Program-made: the position numbers and the translations under genes
Notes under the pieces: generated by a model
Told to the model about the DNA's origin: nothing
The model's database searches: none
Seen by the model: only the letters and a program-made list of their open reading frames with translations
NCBI RefSeq assembly: GCF_001307035.1
Contig: NZ_LKIU01000005.1
Coordinates: 1,102,300 to 1,166,299, forward strand
Length of the DNA: 64,000 bases
DNA from: Arthrobacter sp. Edens01
GTDB lineage: Bacteria > Actinomycetota > Actinomycetes > Actinomycetales > Micrococcaceae
Direction of reading: 5' to 3'
Shown here: positions 38,106 to 61,099 of the stretch, in pieces
How positions within the stretch are numbered: the stretch's first letter is position 1
Layout: each line of letters opens with the position of its first letter

Positions 38106-38953
38106 GCGGAATCGTCCAGGACCCGCCGGCCGCACCGGCAGCGGGTGCGCCGGCGGAAACTCGTGGAGCAGCCGGCATCGATCCCGGCCGTCTGTCCGGA
38201 CTTGGCCGCCACATCGGAGCGCCGCTGCTGCTGGGGGCAGCGGCACTCCTGCTGTGGCAGGGTGCGGTTTGGGTGCTGGAGATTGAGCCGTTCATCGTTC
38301 CGGGACCGTTGGCGATTGCCGAAGCCTTCGCCGGCAACCTGGCGAACGTGTTGGGCGCCGCCGTCGTGACTGGGGTGAACGCCGCCGTCGGGCTGGTGGT
38401 TGGAGCCCTGCTGGGGGTCGCAGCCGCTGTGGCCGCAGCTGCTGTGCCGGTGCTGGACCGGCTGGCGGCACCCCTGGTGGTAGCGCTTTCGGTCATTCCG
38501 ATCGTGGCGCTGGCGCCGGTGCTCTACACGATGTACGGGGCGGACCAGCAGGCCACGCGGCAGATCGTGGCGGGAATCGCCGTCTTCATCCCCGTCTACG
38601 TCAACTCGCTGCGCGGTTTCCGGCAGGTGAAGCCGGTGCACCGGGACCTGATGCGTTCCTATGCTGCCGGGAAGTGGCAGATTACCCGCAGTGTCACTTT
38701 GCCCAGTGCAGTGCCGTACATGTTCACCGGCCTGCGGATTGCGTCGTCGCTGGCCGTCGTCTCGGCACTGATTGCCGAGTACTTCGGCGGGCCGGTAGGT
38801 GGCCTGGGCAAGTCGGTGACCTCAGCGGCGTCGAGCAGCAACTACACGCTGGCCTGGGCCTACGTGCTTGGCGCCGTCCTGCTTGGACTGTTGTTCTACG
38901 CGGTCACCGCCGCGCTGGAGAAGTACTTTTCCCGGCACACCGGCGGCTCCTGA
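38102..38953 (+). CDS. ABC transporter permease (SsuC/ThiX/RibX type) 2
   Basis: 283-aa permease with about six helices and the EAA-like loop LRGFRQVKPVHRDLMRSYAAG, then VTLPSAVPYMFTGLRIASSLAVVSALIAEYFGG. It differs enough from permease 1 to suggest a heterodimeric channel, as known in thiamine-precursor and pyrimidine importers of this class. It overlaps the ATPase gene by 4 bp. The gap of 72 bp to the binding-protein gene has a GAGGGGAAG ribosome-binding site. Confidence 0.88.
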   Translation: MSGIVQDPPAAPAAGAPAETRGAAGIDPGRLSGLGRHIGAPLLLGAAALLLWQGAVWVLEIEPFIVPGPLAIAEAFAGNLANVLGAAVVTGVNAAVGLVVGALLGVAAAVAAAAVPVLDRLAAPLVVALSVIPIVALAPVLYTMYGADQQATRQIVAGIAVFIPVYVNSLRGFRQVKPVHRDLMRSYAAGKWQITRSVTLPSAVPYMFTGLRIASSLAVVSALIAEYFGGPVGGLGKSVTSAASSSNYTLAWAYVLGAVLLGLLFYAVTAALEKYFSRHTGGS

Positions 38954-39025: not shown

Positions 39026-40168
39026 ATGAACACACGAAGGAAACCGCTCACAATCCTGGCCTCCGGGCTGGCCATCACTGCCCTGGCGCTGGCAGGCTGC
39101 GGCGGGGAATCCGGGGATGGCTCGGCCGCTGCCGATGAACTCACCCCGGTGAAGCTGCAGCTGCAGTGGTTCGCGCAGGCCCAGTTTGCCGGCTACTACG
39201 CAGCCCTGGACCAGGGCTTTTTCGAGGAGGAGGGCCTCGACGTCGAAATCCTGGAAGGCGGTGCCGATATTGTGCCGCAGGATGTCCTGGCCTCGGGCGA
39301 CGCCGACTACGCTATCTCCTGGGTGCCCAAGGTTCTCGGCTCGATCGAGCAGGGCGCTGCCATCACCAACGTGGCGCAGATCTTCGAACGAAGCGCTACC
39401 CTGCAGGTCGCGATGGCGGACTCGGGCATTGACGGTCCAGAGGACCTGGCCGGAAAGAAGGTCGGCTCCTGGGGCTACGGCAACGAATGGGAGCTATTCG
39501 CCGGAATGCAGCAGGCCGGCGTGGAGATCGATGACATTGAACTGATCCAGCAGGCCTTTGACATGAACGGTTTCCTCGCCGGGGACATCGACGCCGCGCA
39601 GGCCATGACCTACAACGAATACGCGCAGGTGCTGGAGACGGAGAACCCCGATACGGGTGAGCTGTACCAGCCGGAGGACCTCACCGTCATCGACTGGAAC
39701 GAAGAGGGAACCGCAATGCTCCAGGACGCCATTTGGGCGGACACACAGCGGCTCGAGGATGACGAGGAGTACCAGAAAACCACGGTTGCCTTCATCAAGG
39801 CCGCCATCAAAGGCTGGGCGTATGCGAAGGACAACCCCGAGGAAGCGGCGGAGATCGTGACCGGGGCCGGGTCCACGCTGGGCACGAGCCACCAGCTGTG
39901 GATGACCAATGAAACGTCCAAGCTGATCTGGCCGTCCACGAACGGCGTCGGCCTGATCGATGAGGCTGCGTGGGAACAGACGGTTGAGATCGCGCTGGGC
40001 ACCAAGAACGAAACTGGTGCAACGATCATCAGTGAGGAGCCGCCGGCCACGGCCTGGACCAACGAGTACGTGGAGAAGGCGCTGGCCGAGCTGGAGGAAG
40101 AAGGCGTAGACACCAAGGGTGCGGACTTTGCGCCCATTGAGGTTGAGCTTCAGCCCGGAGGGAACTGA
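39026..40168 (+). CDS. ABC transporter substrate-binding lipoprotein (NMT1/THI5-like)
   Basis: 380-aa exported lipoprotein. Signal with lipobox LALAGC, an acidic linker, then the NMT1/THI5-like binding domain: VKLQLQWFAQAQFAGYYAAL, FFEEEGLDVEILEGGADIVPQ, DLAGKKVGSWGYGNEWE. Relatives bind aminopyrimidine (HMP), riboflavin, nitrate or sulfonates. Because the gene ends an operon with dihydropyrimidinase and carbamoyl amidohydrolase, the ligand is probably a pyrimidine, dihydropyrimidine or hydantoin; no TPP riboswitch is present, which argues against a thiamine role. Confidence 0.88.
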   Translation: MNTRRKPLTILASGLAITALALAGCGGESGDGSAAADELTPVKLQLQWFAQAQFAGYYAALDQGFFEEEGLDVEILEGGADIVPQDVLASGDADYAISWVPKVLGSIEQGAAITNVAQIFERSATLQVAMADSGIDGPEDLAGKKVGSWGYGNEWELFAGMQQAGVEIDDIELIQQAFDMNGFLAGDIDAAQAMTYNEYAQVLETENPDTGELYQPEDLTVIDWNEEGTAMLQDAIWADTQRLEDDEEYQKTTVAFIKAAIKGWAYAKDNPEEAAEIVTGAGSTLGTSHQLWMTNETSKLIWPSTNGVGLIDEAAWEQTVEIALGTKNETGATIISEEPPATAWTNEYVEKALAELEEEGVDTKGADFAPIEVELQPGGN

Positions 40169-40394
40169 CCCGGTTTGAACCCGTGTTGGCCTGGCCGGCG
40201 CATCGCTAGTTCGGCTTCTTGTCCGCCCGCCGGGCGGCCGTGGCTGATGGTGGTGTGCCTGCCAGGCTTTTTTGTGGTGCAGTGCGGCTGGGCCAGTCGG
40301 GATGTTCACCGGTCAAAAGCTGTAGCGTTTGAGCTACCCTCACCGCGAATCAATGCGGGCGGGGTATATGCGACTCGGGAGTCCTGGGATTGTT

Positions 40395-40422
40395 GGGTGC
40401 CGGGTGCCGGGTGCCGGGTGTC
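40395..40422 (+). repeat. 7-nt tandem repeat (GGGTGCC x4)
   Basis: Three exact GGGTGCC units and a fourth, GGGTGTC, in a row; a likely replication-slippage site in non-coding DNA. Confidence 0.8.
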
Positions 40423-40430
40423 GGAGCGGT

Positions 40431-40456
40431 GCTGCGGTGAGGGACCGGCTTGTGGG
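40431..40456 (+). repeat. Junction repeat A
   Basis: Core GTGAGGGACCGGCTTGTGGG; nearly the same as copy D (42221-42246). Lies 3' of the 40482-40985 gene. Confidence 0.65.
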
Positions 40457-40481
40457 ACGCTTACGAGTGCAGGGTCGTTCG

Positions 40482-40985
40482 CTAACCATCCGCGCTGATG
40501 GGGTTGGAGAGACTGAACTCGCAATACTCGCCGGTCAGTTCCCCGCCGACGCTGAACTCGAGCCGAAGCATCTGAGCCTCCGCAGGGGGAGCCGGCGTGT
40601 AGACCCGGAGAGCGTCCCACTCCATACGAGTGCCGGCCGATTTGCCTCCTGACCACTGGTACTCGGTACCAATATCATCAGATACAACCGTGGTGAGCTC
40701 CTCAAAAACTGCGACGCCAGGCATCTGAGGTGGGTCCTCAGATCGTTCTGATCCTGCAGCTTTACGCTGCTTCCACCACTCCTCGAGTTCTCGCTCGTAC
40801 CGGATGTCCCGGGACATTGTCTCTTCTCCGCGCACCCCACTGAAGTGCACATGGATGCTCGGCTTTCCGGCGCTGGCACCGGCGTAGTTTGGCGCGTCTT
40901 TGAACTCGACACCTGCAAAGCGCACGTCGATACCATCGGTGGTTCCCACCACGAGGTCATGAGGCGCATGTGTGAGTGCAATCAT
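40482..40985 (-). CDS. Hypothetical protein (island)
   Basis: 167 aa, not recognised. A strand-rich N-terminus (HDLVVGTTDGIDVRFAGVEF, HVHFSGVRGEE), a charged helical middle (RELEEWWKQRKAAGSERSED) and a strand-rich C-terminus with EYCEFSLSNP. No signal peptide, membrane span or catalytic motif is evident. ATG at 40985 is supported by TAATGT 6 nt upstream (leaderless). The first gene of the island, on the minus strand, with junction repeats on both sides. Confidence 0.6.
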   Translation of the reverse strand: MIALTHAPHDLVVGTTDGIDVRFAGVEFKDAPNYAGASAGKPSIHVHFSGVRGEETMSRDIRYERELEEWWKQRKAAGSERSEDPPQMPGVAVFEELTTVVSDDIGTEYQWSGGKSAGTRMEWDALRVYTPAPPAEAQMLRLEFSVGGELTGEYCEFSLSNPISADG

Positions 40986-40991
40986 GCAGCC

Positions 40992-40997
40992 ACATTA
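40992..40997 (-). promoter_or_regulatory. Candidate -10 box, leaderless
   Basis: Minus-strand TAATGT ends 6 nt before the ATG at 40985. Confidence 0.4.
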
Positions 40998-41052
40998 GCG
41001 GCCCTGGTTCGCACGCGTCACAAAGACGAACGTCTCATCACTCTTCATGCCT

Positions 41053-41076
41053 GTCCCGTAGAGGGATCCGCTGTGG
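41053..41076 (+). repeat. Junction repeat B
   Basis: GTCCCGTAGAGGGATCCGCT; between the hypothetical gene and the 3' end of the lipoprotein gene at 41092. Confidence 0.65.
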
Positions 41077-41091
41077 CCACCCGGTCGACTT

Positions 41092-41460
41092 TCAGGAACA
41101 GGTCTTCACGAAACTTGTGGCACCTGGCCGAGCCTCGAACGTCACAACATGGCCGTCGCCGTCCTCGAAGACAGCTTGTGATCCGGATACGGTCACAGTG
41201 CCCGCCTGATAGGGGTTCCCCCATCCCGGTGGGGGATTGCCTTGGCCATCATGCAACGGCGTCTCTGCAATGAAGAACGTGTCGTCAACGCGCACTTCCT
41301 CTATGCCACAGTGTGTGTAAAGCATGATTGGCTGGCTTGAAGGCCCTCCGGCCGGTGCGTCCGTTGAGGCACCGGGGTGGGGGAGCTGTGGGTCTGAGCA
41401 TGCGCAGAGGACGGCCAACAGCGAGGCAGCCAAGAGTGAGATCCTCACGCTGGTGTTCAT
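41092..41460 (-). CDS. Small hypothetical lipoprotein (island)
   Basis: 122 aa. A signal peptide with the lipobox AVLCAC (Cys about residue 20), a Pro/Ser-rich linker and a small strand-rich domain (MLYTHCGIEEVRVDDTFFIA, GTVTVSGSQAVFEDGDGHVV), compatible with a small beta domain on the cell surface. Start at ATG 41460 because TTGGGGGA lies upstream. No relatives recognised; the pattern HCGIEEVRVDDTFFIAETPL is shared by many unnamed actinobacterial lipoproteins. Confidence 0.65.
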   Translation of the reverse strand: MNTSVRISLLAASLLAVLCACSDPQLPHPGASTDAPAGGPSSQPIMLYTHCGIEEVRVDDTFFIAETPLHDGQGNPPPGWGNPYQAGTVTVSGSQAVFEDGDGHVVTFEARPGATSFVKTCS

Positions 41461-41546
41461 TAGCGTCCCCCAATCTCGAGTCTGACGCACAGACTAGGCG
41501 ATGACGAGAATGGCCGCCATGATGGCAGATGATGCAGTCGCCACGC

Positions 41547-41574
41547 GTCCCGCTCAGGGATCCCCGACGGGGAC
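41547..41574 (+). repeat. Junction repeat C
   Basis: GTCCCGCTCAGGGATCCCCG followed by ACGGGGAC; outer GTCCCG-type arms pair, so it is one of the more hairpin-like copies. Confidence 0.65.
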
Positions 41575-41659
41575 ACTGAGCGCGGCGACAACCCGCAATG
41601 AGCAGTCCGCAAGCCGATTCCTGAACGAACACCTCAGTCGTTGCTCAATGGAAAGATGT

Positions 41660-42127
41660 TTAGCTCGAGGCCTCGTACGCTTCGCAACGGGCCTGGAGTT
41701 CAGTAGCAGCCGCGGTCCAGGCATCCGCGTCCAGGTTCCACGACGCGTCCGGGTTATCCGCTTTCCGGAGAACGTTCTCGGTGGGGGAGGAGAATTGCTT
41801 CACCAGCGGAGCGATGTCCGCAGGAGCATCATTGGCAATGGCCAGGACTTCATCGTGGAGCGGGCGCGCATCCTCCGGGCTCATATTGACGCCCGAAGTG
41901 CCGCCACCGATCTTCACCACCGAGATCATCTGTGTCAGCGGTCCTTGACCGTCTGCGCCGAGGAGTTTGAGGCATGACTGCTCTTCAGTGTCCCCAACCT
42001 CTGGTGCGACGGTGGGGGCTGCGGTTTCCGAAGCAGTTGGCGGTTTGGCCTCGGCTCCTGTAGTTGCCGTACTGCAGCCGGTGAGGAGCAGTAGTGCGAG
42101 GACAGGGCTGATGGCAGATATTCTCAT
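41660..42127 (-). CDS. Small hypothetical lipoprotein (island)
   Basis: 155 aa. Signal peptide with lipobox LLLLTGC, a Thr/Ala/Pro linker, then a mostly helical domain (SCLKLLGADGQGPLTQMISVV, LHDEVLAIANDAPADIAPLVKQF) ending in ELQARCEAYEASS; two cysteines (in SCLKLL and ARCEAY) may form a disulfide. GGGGGAACC just before the ATG at 42127 fixes the start. No family recognised. Confidence 0.65.
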   Translation of the reverse strand: MRISAISPVLALLLLTGCSTATTGAEAKPPTASETAAPTVAPEVGDTEEQSCLKLLGADGQGPLTQMISVVKIGGGTSGVNMSPEDARPLHDEVLAIANDAPADIAPLVKQFSSPTENVLRKADNPDASWNLDADAWTAAATELQARCEAYEASS

Positions 42128-42220
42128 GGTTCCCCCGGGAGTCTTTGACGGTGGTGACAATTTAGCCGTTAGTTACTTTGGTGTCGAGGAACTACATGCT
42201 GTGGCAGGAGTCGCGGCTGT

Positions 42221-42246
42221 GTCCCGCTGAGGGACCGGCTTGCGGG
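42221..42246 (+). repeat. Junction repeat D
   Basis: GTCCCGCTGAGGGACCGGCT then TGCGGG; lies between two divergent genes, so it is not a terminator for either. Confidence 0.65.
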
Positions 42247-42272
42247 CGTGCCTCAATCCTCAATTTCCGTAC

Positions 42273-42278
42273 TAGGCT
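42273..42278 (+). promoter_or_regulatory. Candidate -10 box, leaderless
   Basis: TAGGCT ends 6 nt before the GTG at 42285. Confidence 0.45.
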
Positions 42279-42284
42279 CGACGG

Positions 42285-42848
42285 GTGTCTACCAATCAGA
42301 ATCCCCAAGTGATCATACTGAACGGCGGCTCAAGCTCCGGCAAGTCTTCAATTGCTCGGGCTCTTCAGGAAATCCTCCCAGGCATTTGGTTGACTTTCGG
42401 CGTCGACACTTTCATCGACGCACTTCCTGCCGGGGGTGACAGTCCGCGTGCGGGAATCACCTTCGAGCAGGACGGCACCATCACTTTCAGTGCTGAGCAT
42501 CGGGCCTTGGAACGCAGCTGGTACACCGGACTCAGCGATATGGCCCGCGCGGGAGCCCACTTGATCCTCGATGAGGTCCTTCTGTCAGGGGGAGCGGGTC
42601 AGGATCGTCTGCGGTCAGCCTTCAGCGATGTGGAGCTGATTTGGGTGGCCGTGCGCTGCGACCCGGACGTCGCCGCATCCCGCGAGGCACGACGCGTCGA
42701 CCGCGTGGAAGGGATGGCTCGACAGCAAGCCCTAAGCGTGCACGACGGAGTTGACTACGACGTCGAGGTCGACACCACCTATCGCTCAACGGAAGGGTGC
42801 GCACGCGACATCGCGCGCCAGCTCTCGCTTGAGGCTTTCATCCGCTAA
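42285..42848 (+). CDS. Chloramphenicol 3-O-phosphotransferase-like kinase
   Basis: 187-aa P-loop kinase that closely follows the chloramphenicol phosphotransferase of the producer Streptomyces venezuelae as I recall it: VIILNGGSSSGKSSIARALQ (P-loop), WLTFGVDTFIDALP with the catalytic Asp at D41 (Asp37 in CPT), RALERSWYTGL, MARAGAHLILDEVLL, ELIWVAVRCDPDVAASRE, RVEGMARQQALSVHDGVDYDVEVDTT. It would inactivate chloramphenicol by phosphorylating the primary hydroxyl, or act on a related small molecule. GTG start, leaderless. Its stop TAA lies inside junction repeat E. Confidence 0.85.
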   Translation: MSTNQNPQVIILNGGSSSGKSSIARALQEILPGIWLTFGVDTFIDALPAGGDSPRAGITFEQDGTITFSAEHRALERSWYTGLSDMARAGAHLILDEVLLSGGAGQDRLRSAFSDVELIWVAVRCDPDVAASREARRVDRVEGMARQQALSVHDGVDYDVEVDTTYRSTEGCARDIARQLSLEAFIR

Positions 42849-42863
42849 AGGATCGGCTTACGG
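42842..42863 (+). repeat. Junction repeat E
   Basis: CCGCTAAAGGATCGGCTTAC; overlaps the last codon and stop of the CPT-like gene. Confidence 0.65.
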
Positions 42864-42918
42864 CACATGGCATGCTGGCAGTCTGAGTTGAGCCGCAGTA
42901 ATAGAGGGGGCCATTCAT

Positions 42919-43431
42919 ATGCAGAGCGACGAACCAAAGGTCAGTCGGGACGGTTCTGTGATGTGCACCGTGACAGGATCGTTCTTTCGGGCTGTTGACC
43001 CCGCCTACCGAGCCACAGCTCTCGAGGGGTCCAGATCTGCCGGCCGGTATTCACCGCCGGATGTACCAACGTTGTACCTCAGCTCGTCACGCGAGGGTGT
43101 AGCCGCTGCAATGATCGCCCATGCGGACAATCGCACACCAAATCTCGAAGTGCTGCAGTTCGATGTGGAGGCCGAGCGAATCGTCGATCTTCGTGATCAC
43201 GAGGCATTGAAATCGCTGGGCATTGATCCTGCGGACGCTGCGGCGGACTGGCAGGAACTTGTTGCCGCTGGCCGTTCACCGTCCTCTTGGAAGGTCCGGG
43301 AGGCTCTGGAGAGTTTTGGCGCCCGCGGGTTGATCGACCCGTCACGTAAGCAGCCGCACCTCTGGCATCTGACGCTCTTTAGCTGGAACGCTGACGGCGC
43401 TCCGAGCGTCCGGGAAGTTCCAGCCCAGTAA
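42919..43431 (+). CDS. RES-domain protein (orphan)
   Basis: 170 aa. FFRAVDPAYRATALEGSRSAGRYSPPDVPTLYLSSSREG has the Arg and Ser/Glu pattern of RES domains, and VLQFDVEAERIVDLRD and FGARGLIDPSRKQPHLWHL fit the rest of the fold. RES proteins in Xre/MbcA-RES toxin-antitoxin pairs degrade NAD+. No antitoxin (DUF2384) gene is adjacent: CPT lies before and a lipoprotein after, so this is an orphan, possibly with another function. GAGGGGG precedes the ATG. The stop TAA lies within junction repeat F. Confidence 0.6.
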   Translation: MQSDEPKVSRDGSVMCTVTGSFFRAVDPAYRATALEGSRSAGRYSPPDVPTLYLSSSREGVAAAMIAHADNRTPNLEVLQFDVEAERIVDLRDHEALKSLGIDPADAAADWQELVAAGRSPSSWKVREALESFGARGLIDPSRKQPHLWHLTLFSWNADGAPSVREVPAQ

Positions 43432-43477
43432 GGGATCTCTATGGGACGGGGCTATCGCGCACCTAGACGGAGATCCC
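43421..43477 (+). repeat. Junction repeat F with distal arm
   Basis: CAGTAAGGGATCTCTATGGG, then a distal GAGATCCC (43470-43477) that pairs with GGGATCTC (43432-43439). Confidence 0.6.
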
Positions 43478-43490
43478 CGTGACCGATGGT

Positions 43491-43496
43491 TAGACT
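43491..43496 (+). promoter_or_regulatory. Candidate -10 box, leaderless
   Basis: TAGACT ends 6 nt before the ATG at 43503. Confidence 0.45.
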
Positions 43497-43502
43497 GTCG
43501 CT

Positions 43503-43913
43503 ATGTCGACCGGGAAAGGTGCTAAGTGGGGAATCGGTAGGAGTTCTTTTAACAAGCTCCCATATTCGACTGTCCTGCTCCCTATTGTTGCCTTATCTGG
43601 ATGTGCGGTGGAGAGTGCTCCCATGCCGCCGGACGGACATGTTTTTCTGACAGTTGTCGTTCAGCAGAACAGCGGATCTGCTGTGCCGGGCTGCCTGGTA
43701 AAGCTGGAACCGTCGTTCGGTGAACCAGCAACGGTAACGGCTTCCTCTGGTACTTCGGACCAAAGCGGGAGTGTCGAGTTAGTGCAGTCCCACGGCTTGT
43801 ACGAAATGCTTACGCAGTGCCCGGGCGAAATGCCGACCGGCCCAGTTTTAGTTGATTTAGAGGGCCCAGGGCTCACGTATGCGACGTTGACAACAGGCTC
43901 CGCCGACCAATGA
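43503..43913 (+). CDS. Small hypothetical lipoprotein, carboxypeptidase-regulatory-like (island)
   Basis: 136 aa. An N-terminal signal with lipobox VALSGC (Cys about residue 34), then GHVFLTVVVQQNSGSAVPGCLVKLEP...GTSDQSGSVELVQSHGLYEM, a pattern like the small beta-sandwich domains that regulate or decorate surface proteins (repeats of VxLxx-GxVxLxxxxxGxY). Weakly supported beyond the lipoprotein assignment. Leaderless ATG at 43503. Confidence 0.55.
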   Translation: MSTGKGAKWGIGRSSFNKLPYSTVLLPIVALSGCAVESAPMPPDGHVFLTVVVQQNSGSAVPGCLVKLEPSFGEPATVTASSGTSDQSGSVELVQSHGLYEMLTQCPGEMPTGPVLVDLEGPGLTYATLTTGSADQ

Positions 43914-43965
43914 CAGCTGCGGCCAGTATCCGGACGGCGCATTTCCATAGTAGGGGGTGCTGAAG

Positions 43966-43993
43966 GTGTCGCGCTAAGGGATCCCCTAACGCG
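43966..43993 (+). repeat. Junction repeat G
   Basis: GTGTCGCGCTAAGGGATCCC then CTAACGCG; the most symmetrical copy (GCGCTAAGGGATCCCCTAACGC with one mismatch per arm). Confidence 0.65.
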
Positions 43994-44099
43994 TATGGCC
44001 GATCCCACTCCCATCATCAGAGCACGCCAGCTTAGTCTTGGGGACGGAAGGCGGGCACACCGATAAATAGCGCAATGACTTTACGAACGGAAACTGCGT

Positions 44100-44324
44100 A
44101 TGAAGAACTGGAAAGCGCCGAGCAAGCTCCTTCTCATGTTCGGGATTTGTCTGGCTGTATTCGCCGTGCTGCGATTCCTTGTGCCAACCGAGTACTCACT
44201 AGTGGTTCTTGGCATTCCGGGAGCTATTTTCGTCGGCTACATGGCGAATCTTGGTGCCAATATGGTCCGCAATCCACCACCTCCGTCAGGCAAATCTGAT
44301 GATGCAACTCGGTCCGACCAGTAA
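44100..44324 (+). CDS. Small two-span membrane protein (island)
   Basis: 74 aa. Two hydrophobic helices (about residues 9-27 and 34-52), a basic start (MKNWKAPSK) and a polar Pro-rich tail. GGAAA 7 nt before the ATG gives a modest ribosome-binding site; no -10 box at the leaderless distance. No family recognised; small size makes it uncertain, but hydropathy is clearly that of a membrane protein. Confidence 0.5.
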   Translation: MKNWKAPSKLLLMFGICLAVFAVLRFLVPTEYSLVVLGIPGAIFVGYMANLGANMVRNPPPPSGKSDDATRSDQ

Positions 44325-44471
44325 AACCCGGGACACAGTTGCCTCGTTTGAGGGTTGCTCACCCGCGACGCCTGGCTATGCGCGCCATGCAGTCGGTGGT
44401 CCCTGCGGGGGTGGATTTACCCGAGTGCCCATCAGACGCAAGGACCGTGTTCCCTAACCTGGACTGACAAC

Positions 44472-44499
44472 GTGTCGCGGATAAGGATCGGCTTACAGG
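44472..44499 (+). repeat. Junction repeat H
   Basis: GTGTCGCGGATAAGGATCGG then CTTACAGG; follows the small membrane-protein gene. Confidence 0.65.
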
Positions 44500-44548
44500 C
44501 AATCCGATCGAGACCGTAAAGGCCGACATTAGCATCCCGGCTTGGGGC

Positions 44549-44554
44549 TAGAAT
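44549..44554 (+). promoter_or_regulatory. Candidate -10 box, leaderless
   Basis: TAGAAT ends 6 nt before the ATG at 44561; it decides that ATG over the TTG at 44555. Confidence 0.5.
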
Positions 44555-44560
44555 TTGGTC

Positions 44561-44869
44561 ATGTCAGACGACCGCGCCCGTCGAGTCATCCGCCTGTTTC
44601 CTGACTACGGGCACCGCTGGCCACTCTGGGAGAACAGCACCCCCGGCCACCCGAGCAAATACACAATGGAGCCGGCAGACTTCGGGCTGTCAGAAACCCT
44701 AACTGACCGACTCCGCACCTGGTACGACGCTTGGGAGGCAGAGACCCTTTATGAAAACGGTTGGAGTTCAAGCGCCAAGGAACGGGCTTGGAAGGCTGAG
44801 GGCGCCAGCATCGCCCAGCAACTTCGATCAGAGGTCAAAGCCTTCGCAGACGTGGAATACGACGAGTAG
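44561..44869 (+). CDS. Hypothetical protein (island)
   Basis: 102 aa, soluble, not recognised by name. RARRVIRLFPDYGHRWPLWE and DFGLSETLTDRLRTWYDAWE, then a helical C-terminus (WKAEGASIAQQLRSEVKAF). The aromatic pattern FPDYGxxWPLWE ... LSxxLxxxLxxWxxxWE is one I associate with short conserved actinobacterial proteins of unknown role. Leaderless ATG at 44561. Junction repeats on both sides. Confidence 0.65.
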   Translation: MSDDRARRVIRLFPDYGHRWPLWENSTPGHPSKYTMEPADFGLSETLTDRLRTWYDAWEAETLYENGWSSSAKERAWKAEGASIAQQLRSEVKAFADVEYDE

Positions 44870-44890
44870 CGGGGCCCCGACACTACAGAT

Positions 44891-44920
44891 GTCCCGTAGA
44901 AGGATCCCTCAGCGCGACAC
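44891..44920 (+). repeat. Junction repeat I
   Basis: GTCCCGTAGAAGGATCCCTC then AGCGCGACAC; shares 21 of 22 bases with copy J over its right part. Confidence 0.7.
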
Positions 44921-45116
44921 CTCATGGGTACGAGTGAGCCGAAATGCGCCCATCGGCACTTGGTCCGCTTCCCCTGTGGGGCTGTGGGGCTGTGGGTGTA
45001 ATGGGTAGTTAGCGGTCGCGGAGCTGGTCGAGACGGTGGAACGTAACCCTGGGGTTTTGCTAAACAAGGACAACTCAGTCGAGGGAACTAATACATCCAA
45101 TCCCATGGGCCAGCGA

Positions 45117-45122
45117 TAGGAT
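45117..45122 (+). promoter_or_regulatory. Candidate -10 box, leaderless
   Basis: TAGGAT ends 6 nt before the ATG at 45129. Confidence 0.5.
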
Positions 45123-45128
45123 CGGCGC

Positions 45129-45671
45129 ATGACCAATCTGAATGCAATTCCCAAGGAGACAAAAGACTGGTCATTCGTGGCCGATCAAGGCTGTTCTGAA
45201 TGCGGATATTCACCTCACTTCGGTCCGGAAACCGGGGGTCGTCTCCGCCATACAGCGACCGCTTGGAAAGAATTACTCAGCCATCCTCCAGCTTCCCAGC
45301 GACCCGTACCCCAGGTATGGTCGCCTCTCGAATACGCAGCCCATGTGCGTGACATGTGCCGGCTGGCATGTGAGCGAGTAGGGCTCATGCTGGCAGAGAG
45401 CGTGCCGACTTTTTCCAACTGGGATCAAGACGAACAAGCCGAAATCAACGACTATCTGAACTCGGACAGGCTCGCCCTGTCTGCAGACCTAGAGAGCCAA
45501 TTGGAGCTTGCTGCTCGCGTATTTGACCAAGTTCCCGACAACTCCTGGGACCGCGCAGGACTCCGCGGGGACGGCAAAGAATTCACAGTTCAATCCTTCT
45601 CATCCTTTGTCCTCCACGAGGTCGAGCACCATCTTCAGGATGCGAAGGAAGGTCTGCGCAAAGTCGTCTAG
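45129..45671 (+). CDS. DinB-superfamily protein
   Basis: 180-aa four-helix DinB-like protein. The metal site appears to be a His triad: one from WSPLEYAAHVRDMCRLACER and two from FVLHEVEHHLQDAK. A CSEC pair near the N-terminus (residues 22-25) is unusual. Many actinobacterial members are thiol transferases that use mycothiol, or of unknown substrate. Leaderless ATG. Single-gene unit between junction repeats I and J. Confidence 0.75.
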   Translation: MTNLNAIPKETKDWSFVADQGCSECGYSPHFGPETGGRLRHTATAWKELLSHPPASQRPVPQVWSPLEYAAHVRDMCRLACERVGLMLAESVPTFSNWDQDEQAEINDYLNSDRLALSADLESQLELAARVFDQVPDNSWDRAGLRGDGKEFTVQSFSSFVLHEVEHHLQDAKEGLRKVV

Positions 45672-45736
45672 TGTGCTGCTAGATCTACCGAGGACCAGGT
45701 CGCCGGTAGCCAACCTCAGCCATTGAAAACCGTGTT

Positions 45737-45769
45737 GTGCGCCCGCTGAAGGATCCCTCAGTGCGACAC
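45737..45769 (+). repeat. Junction repeat J
   Basis: GTGCGCCCGCTGAAGGATCC then CTCAGTGCGACAC; one of the longest copies. Confidence 0.7.
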
Positions 45770-45841
45770 GTGTTAGACGGTCTAGCGAGTGATCTGTCCC
45801 TGCGGTTAGCCGCCTAACCAAAAATGATTTCTGAAGCGCGA

Positions 45842-46276
45842 TTAGGTTCTTGCCCAGCCGCACACTCCCGGAGCTTCAAGCGATGTCCCCGCGTATCCGC
45901 GGCCACCCGGCGCGCTTTCGCATAGCTCCTCGGCTATTCCCTTGCCCAGGCTATAGACGGGAGGGAAGGCGGCGCTGATGAGCAGCGTCACCGTGACAAG
46001 GCACATCGCCCATGCCTTACGATTTGTCTCCGCTCGTCTCATTGCCCTCCAAGTCAGAAGGGCCGCAAATGCCAACGCGACAAATGGCAGGTACATCGCT
46101 ACCTGGGTCCACACGGCACCCGTTCGCTGGACAAAGGAAATAAGAGTTACTGCGAAGAGGACAACTGAAAGCAGGATAGGGAGAAAAGCCACGACCCCTA
46201 CAACTGCCACGAGGAGATCAGGCCTAGTTGACCTGCCCCGCCGCTTGAAACCCGTCGTGCTTTGCTGGGTACTCAA
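45842..46276 (-). CDS. Hypothetical membrane protein (island)
   Basis: 144 aa. Three hydrophobic helices (about residues 20-50, 60-80 and 88-108) after a basic N-terminus, and a Gly-rich extracytoplasmic tail with two cysteines (CESAPGG, GVCGWART). The ATG overlaps the stop of the gene at 46273 by 4 bp, so the two are translationally coupled and probably functionally linked. No family recognised. Confidence 0.6.
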   Translation of the reverse strand: MSTQQSTTGFKRRGRSTRPDLLVAVVGVVAFLPILLSVVLFAVTLISFVQRTGAVWTQVAMYLPFVALAFAALLTWRAMRRAETNRKAWAMCLVTVTLLISAAFPPVYSLGKGIAEELCESAPGGRGYAGTSLEAPGVCGWART

Positions 46277-46704
46277 CGCAGCTCATCCACAGCTGCGTTC
46301 TCCTGAGACGCACGGCACAACTGCTCTTCGCGCATTTCGGGACTCAACCCATGCCACGCGTGTGCCTGGGCTGTGACCTCTGAATCCGGCAGGCCCATGG
46401 CTCTCAGCTGCTCGGGTGAAACCATCACGCTGTTCTCCGGCCCGATCTGGTCACTCCGGTCCAGGGCCGCGCCGGGACCGGAGGCATAATCAGCAGAACA
46501 AGCGATGAACGGTTCGTAGACCGCCGTCGCAGGATCATCCTTCAGCTCAGAAGACCCCATCGACGCTATTGGAGCCATCGCAACTGTGGCGGTCTCAGTA
46601 GCGGATTCACCAGGCGCCGATAAGGGCGTCGTTCCTATTCCAAGGACAAAGCCACCCAAGATCGCTAGTACGACGATCATTCCTACTGACGGTCTTCTGT
46701 TAAT
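46273..46704 (-). CDS. Hypothetical membrane-anchored protein with likely ATT start (island)
   Basis: About 143 aa. One N-terminal helix (MIVVLAILGGFVLGIGTTPL) anchors an extracytoplasmic domain with SADYASGPGAALDRSDQ and a C-terminal MREEQLCRASQENAAVDELR. A strong GGGGGGCACC sits just before an ATT codon at 46704, at the spacing used by the GGGGGA-ATG genes nearby; this suggests a rare ATT start or a mutated ATG. The in-frame ATG at 46680 is the fallback. Coupled to the downstream membrane-protein gene. Confidence 0.5.
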   Translation of the reverse strand: MNRRPSVGMIVVLAILGGFVLGIGTTPLSAPGESATETATVAMAPIASMGSSELKDDPATAVYEPFIACSADYASGPGAALDRSDQIGPENSVMVSPEQLRAMGLPDSEVTAQAHAWHGLSPEMREEQLCRASQENAAVDELR

Positions 46705-46805
46705 GGTGCCCCCCTGACCCGCTGCCACACCCCATCGATGCAACGGCCCCAGCCTAGCGGACGGTGCAGGACTTACCCCGAAGATAAGCACTTGAGGGGT
46801 CCCAT

Positions 46806-46826
46806 TAGGCGATCCCTGAACGGGAC
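46806..46826 (-). repeat. Junction repeat K (reverse orientation)
   Basis: Minus strand reads GTCCCGTTCAGGGATCGCCT; just 3' of the gene that ends at 46829. Confidence 0.6.
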
Positions 46827-46828
46827 GC

Positions 46829-47083
46829 CTACTCAGTGGAGCTTTCGGGCGAACGTTCTTCGCGGCGCGCCTTTCGCTTCGCCAGCCACTCGTCGCGGTA
46901 CGCGTCCACCTCTGCTGCCTTCTTATTGCCGAAGTAGACACCAATTATTGGACCCAGGCCGGCGCCAAGGCCAAGTAAGGAGTATTGCCAGCCCTGGGTT
47001 AAACCCACCACGACGCCGATAACGATCGAGAAGCCGAGGAAGTAAAGGAGTGACTTGCCGCTAACGGTTTTATTTCGTGCCAT
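46829..47083 (-). CDS. Small two-span membrane protein (island)
   Basis: 84 aa. Two helices (about residues 12-29 and 34-51) followed by a strongly charged cytoplasmic tail (EVDAYRDEWLAKRKARREER). GAGGAGGA upstream of the ATG gives a good ribosome-binding site. No family recognised. Confidence 0.6.
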   Translation of the reverse strand: MARNKTVSGKSLLYFLGFSIVIGVVVGLTQGWQYSLLGLGAGLGPIIGVYFGNKKAAEVDAYRDEWLAKRKARREERSPESSTE

Positions 47084-47205
47084 CCTGCGTCCTCCTCGAC
47101 GCCGCTAACATTCATTGCTGGTCCTGAGCGAGCCCGCGCGGTCCGGGACAGGCACATGACCGATATGGATCCGTGAACAGGACTCTCCGTCATGGAAGCT
47201 ATCAC

Positions 47206-47451
47206 TCACAGCTCGGGATGTCTGGGGTCCTTTCCACGTTCGCGCCAATAGTCGTCTCGCTGCCGTCGTACGAACCATGCGATATATACCACCGCGGCTA
47301 TTGCGGCGATGCACTGACTGATAGCGATGACCCAGTCCCAACGCGATCGGAACTCTGCCGGCAGCCATCCTGGAATGAGAAAAAGCGCCACGGCTGTCAC
47401 CACGCCTAACACTGCGGGCAACGGGGACGGACGACGCTGCACAGAAGTCAT
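47206..47451 (-). CDS. Small two-span membrane protein (island)
   Basis: 81 aa. Helices at about residues 11-30 and 39-61, then a basic tail (RRQRDDYWRERGKDPRH). A TAGGGT lies 5 nt before the ATG, so the mRNA may be nearly leaderless. No family recognised. Confidence 0.55.
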   Translation of the reverse strand: MTSVQRRPSPLPAVLGVVTAVALFLIPGWLPAEFRSRWDWVIAISQCIAAIAAVVYIAWFVRRQRDDYWRERGKDPRHPEL

Positions 47452-47593
47452 GGCTCACCCTATCCATTTCCCAGGTTTGGAGGTGAACATTTGAAACGAT
47501 TCGCCTCGGTCCAACTCTCCAAACGGCACGGTTCCCGGTACGAGGCCCCAGGTTGAACGTCCCTGCCGCAGCGCCTGACGCGACCGTGGGTTG

Positions 47594-48211
47594 TCAGCTT
47601 GTGCGGGCCTCAAGTTCGGCGACTCCGGGGCCGGTGAGCTCGGCACAGTAGGCGCTCCGGCCTGTCATCGCCATGATGAGTGCGACGGTACTACCACGGA
47701 CGACGTCGCCTTCCCCGAGGCTGATGCCCGTGTCCACAGCCTCCAGCCGCAGGCCACGAACCCGTTTCTTGGCGATGACCACCTGATTGGTACCCGCGTA
47801 ATAGCGCAGCAATGCGACGAGGGCCGCGGCCGGATAGTCGCGGACCAGACCAAGCGGCCGACGGATGTCCTCTCCGTGAACGACCATCTCGCCTAGCAGC
47901 GCCAGCCGCGGCAGCGGCGGAGATGTGCGGCTGCCAATGGTCGACCTGAATCGGCTCAGTGTCTCTGAGGAGGAGGTGCCCAGCTGCTCGCGAAGGCGGT
48001 CCTCCACTTGTTTGTCGAAGTCGAACCGGGCACGCACGACGCCCGCGAACCAACGGGGCCCCGACACCGCTCCGCTGACAGTCAGATGCGCGAGCACCTC
48101 GCGTACTGTCAAGCCAGCGCAGAGCGAAGGAGTTGACCACTGCGCCTCGTCTACCTGCGCAAGCTGGTCCGCGAGAGCTTCCCGCTCAACGTCGATGCTC
48201 TGCCAGACCAT
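47594..48211 (-). CDS. Maleylpyruvate isomerase N-domain / DinB-type mycothiol-dependent enzyme
   Basis: 205 aa of the maleylpyruvate isomerase family (DinB-like N-domain plus small C-terminal SCP-like region). EREALADQLAQVDEAQWSTPSLCAGLTVREVLAHL is the family signature with its metal-binding His, and LALLGEMVVHGEDIRRPLG gives the other His residues. The C-terminal IMAMTGRSAYCAELTGPG is the usual final motif. These enzymes use mycothiol or have unknown thiol chemistry. ATG 48211 with GGAG upstream; an in-frame ATG at 48244 is less likely. Confidence 0.8.
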   Translation of the reverse strand: MVWQSIDVEREALADQLAQVDEAQWSTPSLCAGLTVREVLAHLTVSGAVSGPRWFAGVVRARFDFDKQVEDRLREQLGTSSSETLSRFRSTIGSRTSPPLPRLALLGEMVVHGEDIRRPLGLVRDYPAAALVALLRYYAGTNQVVIAKKRVRGLRLEAVDTGISLGEGDVVRGSTVALIMAMTGRSAYCAELTGPGVAELEARTS

Positions 48212-48245
48212 GTTCCGCTCCACACCGGCATCCTCCCAATCCAAC

Positions 48246-48274
48246 GTCCGGATATGGATCCCTCAGCGTGCGCG
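48246..48274 (+). repeat. Junction repeat M
   Basis: GTCCGGATATGGATCCCTCA then GCGTGCGCG; left border of the VOC gene fragment. Confidence 0.6.
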
Positions 48275-48448
48275 ATTCAGCAATGAGAAGGTTGTCGAAC
48301 TTCGCCCGTGTGCCCTCGAGGACGGACCGGCAGCCCAAGGAGCAGGCATGCCGGACAATGTGGATTGGCTCGTCCTCACTGATGACCGCGGCAACCGCAG
48401 GCTAGCCTTTCAGCAGGTTGATAACTTGAAGAGAGCAACATGGCCGCT
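48275..48448 (+). pseudogene. Internal fragment of a VOC/glyoxalase-family gene
   Basis: In one frame this reads ...MPDNVDWLVLTDDRGNRRLAFQQVDNLKRATWPL. The wording DWLVL-x-D-x-G-x-RRLAFQQV-x3-TWP is the middle strand-loop-strand of a common actinobacterial VOC/glyoxalase-like protein. The N-terminal start and the HLDL-type C-terminal half are missing. The fragment begins right after junction repeat M and ends at junction repeat N, so it looks like what remained when a cassette was cut at its repeats. Confidence 0.6.
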
Positions 48449-48469
48449 GTCCGTTGAAGGATCCCCAGC
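48449..48469 (+). repeat. Junction repeat N
   Basis: GTCCGTTGAAGGATCCCCAG; right border of the VOC gene fragment. Confidence 0.6.
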
Positions 48470-48489
48470 TTGGCGGAGGAGTGTGGCCG

Positions 48490-49170
48490 TCAGCGCCGGG
48501 TCGCAAACCGGACCTGGATCCATTTGAGCTCAGCGCGTGGAAGCACCGCGGTAACGACGCCGCCGCCAGCGAGGCTGGCTCCGATGCCGTACACAAACGG
48601 ATCAGTATCGACCTCTGCGCCGGGCACCTCGACTCCGTTGACGACGGTTCTGGCCTGGCCGTTTACCGTCCGGGCAGTTACTACGGGTGCGTGCTGGTCC
48701 CAGGGTTTACCGCCGGGCCAGAGGTGCTGCCGGTACTGGTTCAACAGGATGTGGTTGACGTGGTCAGCCAGGAGGCTTTCAAGCGAAGAGTGCGGCTCGC
48801 GGTGCCAAGTGGTCCGCACGGCCTCCCACAGCTGCGGATAGCGCATCCGCTCCACCTGCTCGATCAGCCAAGGGGGCCGGGGCCACCGCGGAACATCGTC
48901 GATCCCTCTGAGGGTCTCCTCGTCGAGGTCCGCCAGGTTAACGGGGTCTGATCGGTCATCCGGATTTCGCCAGAGACTGTAGGTGATGCTCGCTGTCATT
49001 CCGCTGTACCCATGGTCATCCAGGGCGTAGTTCAGACTGACGGAGTCGGTGTCCTCAAGAGATGGCTGGGACATCAGCCCCAGCACTGGAATGGGCATGA
49101 GCTTTAGGTTTTCGGCCCATTCGGCACGGGGGTCTGGGGCGTCTTCCGGGAGAATGCCAACCCATTCCAT
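48490..49170 (-). CDS. Hypothetical protein (island)
   Basis: 226 aa, soluble, not recognised. PIPVLGLMSQPSLEDTDSV and SMTASITYSLWRNPDDRSD at the N-terminus, a Trp/Pro-rich centre (VPRWPRPPWLIEQVERMRYP, LWEAVRTTWHREPHSSLESL) and a strand-rich C-terminus with GAEVDTDPFVYGIGASLAGG. The ATG at 49170 is preceded by CATAGT at 6 nt, which favours it over the TTG at 49188. Last island gene before the MerR regulator. Confidence 0.6.
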   Translation of the reverse strand: MEWVGILPEDAPDPRAEWAENLKLMPIPVLGLMSQPSLEDTDSVSLNYALDDHGYSGMTASITYSLWRNPDDRSDPVNLADLDEETLRGIDDVPRWPRPPWLIEQVERMRYPQLWEAVRTTWHREPHSSLESLLADHVNHILLNQYRQHLWPGGKPWDQHAPVVTARTVNGQARTVVNGVEVPGAEVDTDPFVYGIGASLAGGGVVTAVLPRAELKWIQVRFATRR

Positions 49171-49230
49171 GCCTAGACTATGAATCAATTAAGGGTGCCT
49201 GTAAATGGAAAAGAGTTTAGGGCCCCAAAT

Positions 49231-49253
49231 GTCCCGCTGAGGAGTGGCGCGAC
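49231..49253 (+). repeat. Junction repeat O
   Basis: GTCCCGCTGAGGAGTGGCGC then GAC; the centre lacks the ATCC half. Marks the right end of the array. Confidence 0.55.
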
Positions 49254-49282
49254 GTCCCGCCCTGTACTGGAAGGCCCCGCAC

Positions 49283-50113
49283 ATGCATTCGTCCCCTTTC
49301 CCCCTTCCGCCGCGTCAGGTCGAGATCGGTGACGCGGCACAGCTCACCGGCGCCACTCCGGACGCGATCCATCGCTACCGCGAGCTGGGTCTGCTTCCTG
49401 AGCTGGAACGGGCCGGCGACGGCCACCACCGCTACGGCTATGACGACATGATCCGGTTGCTGTGGATCCACAAAATGGTCAGCGCCGGGATCGATGAGGA
49501 CGACATCCGTGACATCTTCGCTGACGCTGCTCCTGCTGCCGTCGATAACGGCCGCCACACGGCCGTCGTGCAGCGAATGCGCACCGTGGAGGGCCGGATG
49601 GGTCTGCTCTCCGAGTTCGTCACCGGCCGCCTTAGAGGCCTGCCAGCGGGCTCGCTTCGCCAGGCAGACCTGGACAACCTGCTGGTCATCGAGCGGATCT
49701 TTGGCCCGCTCGGTGCGGCCGTTAATGCCGGCCGCTATATCGCCCTGGCCACTCACCCCGGTCTGCGGGAGGAATCCGACCGCGTCGAGGCCGCCGAGGA
49801 CGCACTGGATGACACGGTCGCCGTCGACGATCCCTGCGTGGCGCAAGCCGCTGCAGAACGGCACGCTTTTGAACTGAAACTCGATGCCGCCATCAACGAT
49901 TCCGGTCAGGCACAAAGCGACGATGAGCTTTTTGACTCCTGGGATGCGGTGCATCCGGCTGGCGCAGAAAATGAGGACGACGCCGGCGGCGGGGGAGAGC
50001 GGATAAGCCTCCTCGAAGCCGTCGGAATGATGCCCTACAACTACTCCCCGGCGCGTCTGCGCTGCATGGAACTGACCGGAGAACTCGCAGCCAACGCGTC
50101 TTCCGCTTCCTAA
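49283..50113 (+). CDS. MerR-family transcriptional regulator
   Basis: 276 aa. N-terminal winged helix-turn-helix VEIGDAAQLTGATPDAIHRYRELGLLPELERAGDGHHRYGYDD, typical of MerR, then a coiled-coil dimer helix (QRMRTVEGRMGLLSEF) and a long effector domain with no conserved metal cysteines, so the signal is probably an organic ligand. ATG 49283 chosen; GAAGG lies upstream. The target operon is not obvious, since the gene is followed by the convergent MocR gene. Confidence 0.8.
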   Translation: MHSSPFPLPPRQVEIGDAAQLTGATPDAIHRYRELGLLPELERAGDGHHRYGYDDMIRLLWIHKMVSAGIDEDDIRDIFADAAPAAVDNGRHTAVVQRMRTVEGRMGLLSEFVTGRLRGLPAGSLRQADLDNLLVIERIFGPLGAAVNAGRYIALATHPGLREESDRVEAAEDALDDTVAVDDPCVAQAAAERHAFELKLDAAINDSGQAQSDDELFDSWDAVHPAGAENEDDAGGGGERISLLEAVGMMPYNYSPARLRCMELTGELAANASSAS

Positions 50114-60839: not shown

Positions 60840-61099
60840 GGAGATTCCTCTGCCTGACGCGCAGCCTGCGGTGCGAACCGCGAAATGCCAGCGCTGTACT
60901 TGCCGGACCGGGAGATCCACCGGAACGGCCGAATCGTCACCTGGAGCACCCCGCTACGGCGAGAGGGTTGCCGCCCAGCCGGCCAGGGCCTGTGGCTGGA
61001 ACTCTTGATTCTGGCTACCAATCTAGGAGCGGAAAGGGGCCCGGGGCAAACGTTCGTCACATACCGGCTGTGGCGGGCAACAGTTCGTAACGGGAGTAC

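Follow-up and report, generated by a model that had tools for sequence, protein, structure and literature searches.

An island of small genes in Arthrobacter sp. Edens01 as a probable orphan cassette array of an integron-like system with a small serine recombinase

Integrons are the textbook route for collecting single genes into arrays, through a tyrosine recombinase that acts on folded single strands, and they are rare in Actinobacteria. Single genes bounded by short recombination sites are also exchanged as units in the pdif modules of Acinetobacter plasmids, and the small serine recombinases Gin, Hin, gamma-delta, Tn3 and TniR invert or resolve one segment. We know of no described system in which a small serine recombinase builds gene-cassette arrays, and a literature search whose reach excluded preprints and most subscription journals returned no description of one. 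Here we analyze a 64,000-nucleotide stretch (hereafter the window) of the 3.64-Mb genome of Arthrobacter sp. Edens01 (genome G000, contig C5, positions 1102300-1166299), in which an island of about 15 small genes in both orientations (g1 to g15), punctuated by copies of a 34-nucleotide site, lies between an ABC-transporter operon ending at 40168 and a MerR-family gene (49274-50113). Comparison with related genomes (labelled G, and their loci L) indicates that this island is very probably an orphan array of gene cassettes belonging to an integron-like system that works through a small serine recombinase.

The first-pass annotation had described fourteen GGATCC-centred palindromes at the gene junctions of the island, absent from the flanking housekeeping regions, and had read them as the joints of a cassette array or exchange hot-spot whose unit is a gene plus its junction repeat. 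The repeat is real: a 34-nucleotide profile trained on 157 sites from other genomes and containing no window rows, although its training sites had themselves first been located using the window's motif, finds 11 window copies at 15 bits or more, all in 40428-48275, against 0.2 expected from Markov-simulated 64-kb sequences, in which the top score across 50 runs was 17.6 bits. The count and the form need revision, however: among the 15 positions read as copies (13 aligned, plus 43419 and 49227), ten reach 15 bits (sites A, C to J and L below) and five are weak or degenerate, the eleventh strong copy (41601, minus strand) lies outside that set, and the GGATCC palindrome is one variant of the consensus over 134 sites, GGTGTCSCGGTGARGGAYCGGCTTACGGG. 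An earlier profile was built from the copies in the window, which makes it circular, and it carries no weight here. In a whole-genome scan with a model that includes the window copies (R1; 150 of 1831 genome candidates scored), the top 11 matches (10 places, E up to 0.18) all fall in the island, and the strongest match outside it has E 0.36; the even spread over the genome that had been named beforehand as a ground for rejecting an array is not seen, with no copies above chance outside the island. The positions in the window are as follows.

40428..40461, plus strand, site A (29.1 bits), left end of the array, between the ABC-transporter gene and g1
41050..41083, plus strand, site B, weak (10.4 bits)
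41544..41577, plus strand, site C (18.0 bits)
41601..41634, minus strand, additional site beyond the first list (18.8 bits)
42218..42251, plus strand, site D (32.3 bits), between divergent genes
42836..42869, plus strand, site E (25.3 bits), overlapping the g4 stop codon
43419, position read as a copy (below 9 bits)
43965..43998, plus strand, site F (27.4 bits)
44471..44504, plus strand, site G (31.7 bits)
44888..44921, minus strand, site H (33.0 bits)
45737..45770, minus strand, site I (25.9 bits)
46796..46829, minus strand, site J (30.7 bits), joining flanks that are 7.9 kb apart in G004
47153..47186, plus strand, site K, degenerate (below 9 bits)
48242..48275, minus strand, site L (16.7 bits)
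48445..48478, plus strand, site M, degenerate (below 9 bits)
49227..49260, plus strand, left half-site at the right end (below 9 bits), joined near 49242 to DNA like the native MerR upstream region, a junction read by comparison with 12 MerR loci

Across 29 genomes of the genus, a site search returns matches in all 29 at E up to 1, a threshold that admits chance matches, and among the matches listed most genomes have, by eye, one to three clusters at differing chromosomal places. The arrays of related Arthrobacter contain other genes, and gene order is not conserved across relatives, contrary to the second ground for rejection that had been proposed. The placement at gene junctions holds throughout the 29 array loci of the genus, where 3 of 163 site centres fall inside called genes against 83.8 expected, by a simple caller based on codon usage that overlooks some small genes, several of them in the window. 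Site D, as had been reported, separates two divergent genes.

Breakpoints between genomes are concentrated at the sites. For 163 sites of at least 17 bits, in 29 array loci of 21 genomes, 161 of 1045 ends of cross-genome homology fall within 10 bp of a site centre, whereas 200 circular shifts give 12.7 on average and 31 at most; the ends peak at site positions 14-18 rather than at the borders, although conserved sites may pull ends inward. A larger set of 226 sites (15 bits or more, 49 loci) yields 25 pairs that share the left flank only, 24 that share the right flank only, and a single pair that shares both. Left-only pairs keep high identity through position 17-19 and drop after it, right-only pairs are near background to position 14 and rise after it, and the switch of identity in swapped pairs lies at positions 15-19. 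The central G16 and A17 (present in 223 and 203 of the 226 sites) are identical in 49/49 swapped pairs, as is C8, which is nearly invariant everywhere; the pairs overlap in their members, as a group of three or four sites supplies several of them, and so are not independent.

The same pattern is found in the window itself. Homology between Edens01 and G004 in the left flank of site A stops, in each of the two, 6 bp from a site centre; sites of G024 and G011 that bear different left halves have the right half and flank of site G; and G025 holds a weaker site similar to site G. Sixteen alignments have both ends within 15 bp of query site centres, nine of them in both genomes. Among these sixteen is the unit carrying g8 (44484-44914), which is found again in G009, G024 and G025 (DNA identity 91.5%, 90.6% and 92.8%), ending at detected sites on both sides in G009 only; in G025 the g8 protein is 93% and the MerR protein 71% identical. 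These comparisons show units bounded by sites, often of one gene each, that are joined to different neighbours across genomes, with breakpoints in the central GGATC. The earlier reading as a cassette array is supported, since no copies above chance lie outside the island in this genome, relatives differ in gene order and whole units recur in other contexts.

It could be argued that the repeats are REP-like elements (repetitive extragenic palindromes) or bidirectional terminators that gather between genes, the genes having moved by homologous recombination, as sites that are near-palindromic, intergenic and often close to stop codons might suggest. We consider this very improbable, because a run of five or more T within 16 bp occurs at 2 of the 226 sites, in line with the earlier remark that they are not simple terminators; RNAalifold on an ungapped alignment of 33 copies predicts no conserved base pairs; the copies of the Edens01 genome are island-confined rather than dispersed; sharing flips sharply at the site centre; and the sites are linked to a recombinase that has its own attI-like copy (below). 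The same RNAalifold result offers no support for a site acting as a folded strand.

Comparison of loci for gain and loss of whole units, which had been advised, gives one case at the window's own locus. On the g11 side, the flank of site J (46796) resembles that of G004 site 20752 (92.8% over 138 bp); on the g12 side, the counterpart is the flank of G004 site 12856 (89.4% over 141 bp). The two G004 sites lie 7.9 kb apart with five more detected sites between them, so that one genome carries a block of cassettes that the other lacks, with breakpoints at sites. An ungapped check confirmed the g11 side (0.92 over 60 bp) and not the g12 side, which is shifted by 2 bp; longer alignments back both flanks. 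Among 457 sites (13.5 bits or more), 23 pairings have both flanks in another locus, of which 21 are at one site and mostly represent the same DNA fetched twice or near-identical plasmids; the remaining two are the case of site J and a 1.7-kb candidate (L168 versus L169). Six pairs of recombinase loci have little in common beyond the recombinase gene and hence provide no further case. The flank to the left of the window's array, with the ABC operon, is matched in fetched loci with arrays from G001, G004 and G011, and that to the right, with the MerR gene, in those of G008, G025 and G026; thus the Edens01 genome joins two array neighbourhoods.

Proteins of the resolvase family PF00239 lie at or near many arrays, and one subfamily of about 196 aa recurs. 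Its gene is divergent from the array and read away from it, with a site directly upstream in G007, G009, G015 and G024; in G008 the upstream distance is about 280 bp, in G023 it is 2.2 kb to the first site, and G017 and G026 have a degraded recombinase gene beside sites. The protein aligns over nearly its full length with Gin (4m6f) and gamma-delta resolvase, including active-site motifs such as GYARVST and KLDRLAR, and has the resolvase domain, catalytic serine and arginines and C-terminal helix-turn-helix of a small serine recombinase. Resolvases of other subfamilies occur at six loci of the genus without a site, and a degraded copy of one lies in a G022 locus that has sites. A different, 206-aa resolvase-family gene is found in the array loci of G005 (L083, 15368-15988) and G002 (L103, 12798-13418); the homologous stretch ends at a G005 site, which suggests that this gene may be a mobile cassette in its own right. 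Downstream of the recombinase, L038, L093 and L095 share their chromosomal neighbours (phosphatase-like and DUF3090-like by eye), so that the recombinase locus looks chromosomally fixed in several genomes of the genus.

The absence of an integrase from the window, noted at first reading, extends to any clear recombinase remnant there, and the two PF00239 places of the Edens01 genome are not at the array. With no recombinase of the array-linked subfamily seen in this genome, the island looks like an orphan array, and its activity in this strain is not to be assumed. The recombinase gene was probably lost in this strain rather than never present, which would have left the array isolated between its ABC-transporter and MerR neighbours.

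Upstream of the recombinase gene lies what may be the counterpart of the integron attI, the attachment site beside the recombinase. At 16 bits, an attI-like site occurs between -230 and -40 in 40 of 79 named loci, in one orientation in 35 of the 40, and at some 70-180 bp from the gene in about half of the loci; none was found at 46 control resolvases, more distant relatives in viral contigs from other taxa, out of 76 returned below 45% identity. At 15 bits and in the majority orientation the count is 65 of 129 loci, some places having been fetched twice. For recombinase pairs of 80% identity or more (n = 222), identity is 0.77 in the gene-side half of the site, 0.52 in the outer half and 0.26 in the outer flank, as is characteristic of an attI whose first cassette changes; at 60-70% identity (45 pairs) the values are 0.56 for the gene-side and 0.37 for the outer half. 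More than 400 bp away, site density is 13.7 per 100 kb on the attI side and 3.2 on the other, a fourfold difference, and 71 of 82 sites further upstream have the attI orientation. On a tree of 89 recombinases, obtained by a quick search that leaves 40 of 86 inner branches open, the attI-like label (14 bits; 47/79) requires 22 changes against 25.0 in shuffles, its scatter indicating that it does not mark one clade. Mean profile scores upstream of the gene are uninformative, the loci being out of register. Two further motifs, GCCCGGTGAAGGT and CAACCGCTACA, are conserved between attI and the start codon; they resemble inverted half-sites by eye and may be accessory sites of the resolvase type. 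In L118, L124, L133 and L141, similar insertion-sequence-like DNA (like TGCAGACGACTTCTGACATT) lies near the expected attI position.

The upstream region looks res-like by eye, and homologues on plasmids pAO1 and NtRootC7 adjoin a transposase and an ATPase, both of which would suit an ordinary resolvase of a Tn402-like transposon or plasmid with its res site, the array sites being by-products. A res site should keep both halves, yet the outer half is much less kept among close recombinases; the recombinases of the genus adjoin ordinary chromosomal genes (by eye, no family search having been run); and the attI side has a fourfold higher density of sites than the other. There is therefore only a slight chance that the array-side enzyme is such a resolvase.

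Tyrosine recombinases (PF00589) were searched as well, and each of the 29 genus genomes has two high-scoring copies, presumably XerC and XerD, plus scattered others. No PF00589 place, among those listed, lies at an array, and hence no array-linked IntI was found. Cores of attC (RYYYAAC..GTTRRRY) are present in none of the 226 sites including 30 bp on each side (0.46 expected by shuffling), and the XerD-arm-like motif TTATGTYAA is in none of the 226 sites. Use of the sites by XerC and XerD, as in pdif modules, would be helped by the presence of both presumed enzymes in all 29 genomes and by the likeness of those modules, which are also small gene units between short sites; it is most improbable given the lack of the XerD arm and the fact that the enzymes at arrays are serine recombinases. 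Least probable of all, and already contradicted, is a true but diverged integron with its IntI elsewhere: the layout of recombinase, attI-like site and array of small-gene units is the same, but no tyrosine recombinase is linked to the arrays among the matches listed, the attC cores are missing and the crossover is central, not at a site end. Membership among integrons was accordingly rejected for the arrays, although they appear to function like one.

The system thus rejected as an integron proper has integron features by other means. As in integrons and in orphan arrays of attC sites without an integrase (CALIN), there are a divergent recombinase gene, an attI-like site with, by analogy, a variable first cassette (the site is of another type and is seen at about half of the loci), arrays of small-gene units exchanged at sites, as judged from genome comparison, and shared between species, and arrays free of a recombinase. 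In contrast to integrons, the recombinase is of the serine and not the tyrosine type, the 34-bp site lacks attC cores and detected conserved folding, the crossover is at the site centre, and genes occur in both orientations. The enzyme resembles the Gin/Hin invertases, the gamma-delta/Tn3 resolvases and the Tn402-type TniR in family (PF00239), size and active-site motifs, and it shares with small serine recombinases a short palindromic core site and possible accessory sites by the gene; unlike known members, it is associated with many core sites that delimit different genes across many genomes. The single genes between short sites, exchanged as units, recall pdif modules, which depend on host XerC/XerD and dif-like sites, whereas the array sites have no XerD-arm-like sequence and are linked to a serine recombinase.

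In the wider family, recombinase matches (E up to 1e-50) occur in 106 of 295 genomes and sites (E up to 0.02, under stricter filters with 23 candidates scored per genome) in 161 of 295; both are present in 86 (odds ratio 6.5, p 3.5e-12), a count that includes the attI-like site itself, comes from related genomes and takes both sets as the same 295. Among the best 80 of 579 recombinase relatives, the named ones reach Cryobacterium, Curtobacterium, Nocardioides, Georgenia, Pseudonocardiales and Solirubrobacterales. Homologues are present on 555 of 72,556 plasmid records, 551 of the 555 below 80% identity. In pAO1 (L325, 9004-12555), two recombinase genes, the second of the array-linked subfamily, flank a Mu-type transposase and an AAA ATPase, a layout like that of Tn402-like modules. 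Three IMG/VR viral contigs (L242, L243 and L244) carry close recombinases (68-72%) with an att-like site of 15.6, 21.5 and 20.2 bits, respectively, about 140-180 bp upstream.

Several observations weigh against a serine-recombinase cassette system. Exchange at the arrays is read from sequence comparison. At E 1e-50 the subfamily finds no match in the Edens01 genome, and the window shows no clear remnant; sites occur in 75 of the 189 family genomes that lack the recombinase and were not detected in 20 of the 106 that have it. The intact recombinases of G011 and G022 lack a site directly upstream, 39 of the 79 named loci lack an attI-like site at 16 bits, and the asymmetry of the halves disappears at 70-80% recombinase identity (735 pairs; gene-side 0.56, outer 0.54). 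Resolvases of other subfamilies lie inside array loci of G002, G005 and G023, and another in G004 is preceded by a site at a distance of 292 bp. The simple caller finds exactly one gene in 43 of the 89 intervals between 150 and 2600 bp long, none in 26 and two to four in 20, and gene orientation relative to sites is mixed (18 same, 10 opposite). The plasmid homologues may be ordinary resolvases, since two of five records examined (pAO1 and NtRootC7) have them beside transposition genes. Finally, comparison of these two near-identical plasmids gives no clean cassette indel: the extra DNA of pAO1 (L325, 5746-9725) ends inside a transposase gene and is not cassette-shaped.

Under a serine-recombinase cassette system, a recombinase dimer would bind the two half-sites and cut at the site centre, at a GA or AY dinucleotide, strand exchange taking place between two double-stranded sites; a cassette would leave as a circle and enter at attI or at another site. 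With excision and insertion at site centres, each junction would consist of the left half of one unit and the right half of the next.

The genes of the island and its right flank are as follows; where a Pfam match was found, its E value is given.

40482..40985, minus strand, g1, cassette gene of unknown function, open reading frame, no Pfam match
41092..41451, minus strand, g2, cassette gene, lipoprotein-like by eye, within an open reading frame, no Pfam match
41660..42130, minus strand, g3, cassette gene, lipoprotein-like by eye, within an open reading frame, no Pfam match
42285..42848, plus strand, g4, CPT-family (chloramphenicol phosphotransferase-like) protein, PF07931, E 2.1e-52
42919..43431, plus strand, g5, RES-domain protein, PF08808, E 8.2e-12
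43503..43913, plus strand, g6, open reading frame, weakly Big_1-like (E 0.0019, below the Pfam cut-off)
44100..44324, plus strand, g7, open reading frame, small membrane protein by eye
44561..44869, plus strand, g8, in the unit 44484-44914 found again in other arrays
45129..45671, plus strand, g9, DinB-family protein, PF12867, E 5.2e-8
45842..46276, minus strand, g10, open reading frame, membrane protein by eye
start near 46700 (uncertain), g11, upstream of g10
46829..47083, minus strand, g12, open reading frame, small membrane protein by eye
47206..47451, minus strand, g13, open reading frame, small membrane protein by eye
47594..48244, minus strand, g14, mycothiol maleylpyruvate isomerase-like, PF11716, E 1.4e-12, with an 83% identical copy in the G025 array
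48490..49170, minus strand, g15, unknown, with homologous DNA in fetched loci of G001, G004, G005, G006 and G026
49274..50113, plus strand, MerR-family gene of the right flank, also near arrays of G008, G025 and G026

The G+C content of 40001-48000 is 0.58-0.61, most of the window being higher. The scan covered 68 cassette proteins: 55 from outside the window, out of 71 listed there (in a listing of 77 of 93 called proteins), and 13 from the window, of which one was taken as listed, four had their bounds redrawn by hand and eight were added, one listed window frame being omitted. Among the first 25 of 64 Pfam families no function dominates: GNAT acetyltransferases occur in five proteins and the other families have one to three members each. 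PADLOC matches to the same proteins include bSEFIR-like and SIR2-like ones, one member per family, a hint of defence cargo. No Rfam family was found at the island; elsewhere in the window, a SAM-IV riboswitch lies at 60891-61010 (minus strand, 89.4 bits), and an ARAGORN tRNA-Ser at 38381-38472 (plus strand), within an ABC permease reading frame, is probably a false call.

We consider it likely that Actinobacteria have a second, independently evolved kind of integron, with a small serine recombinase, double-stranded sites with a central crossover, a res-like attI with accessory half-sites, cassette sites reduced to the bare core, a possible ancestry among the resolvases of transposons or plasmids, and a pool of cassettes that different genera share. 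If so, gene-cassette capture would have evolved convergently, through a serine recombinase and double-stranded sites. Such a system would also provide a large unstudied pool of small cassette genes and a simple recombinase with a short site for use in DNA assembly. For soil bacteria the system would be a route to trade single genes, and it would help to explain gene turnover in Actinobacteria.

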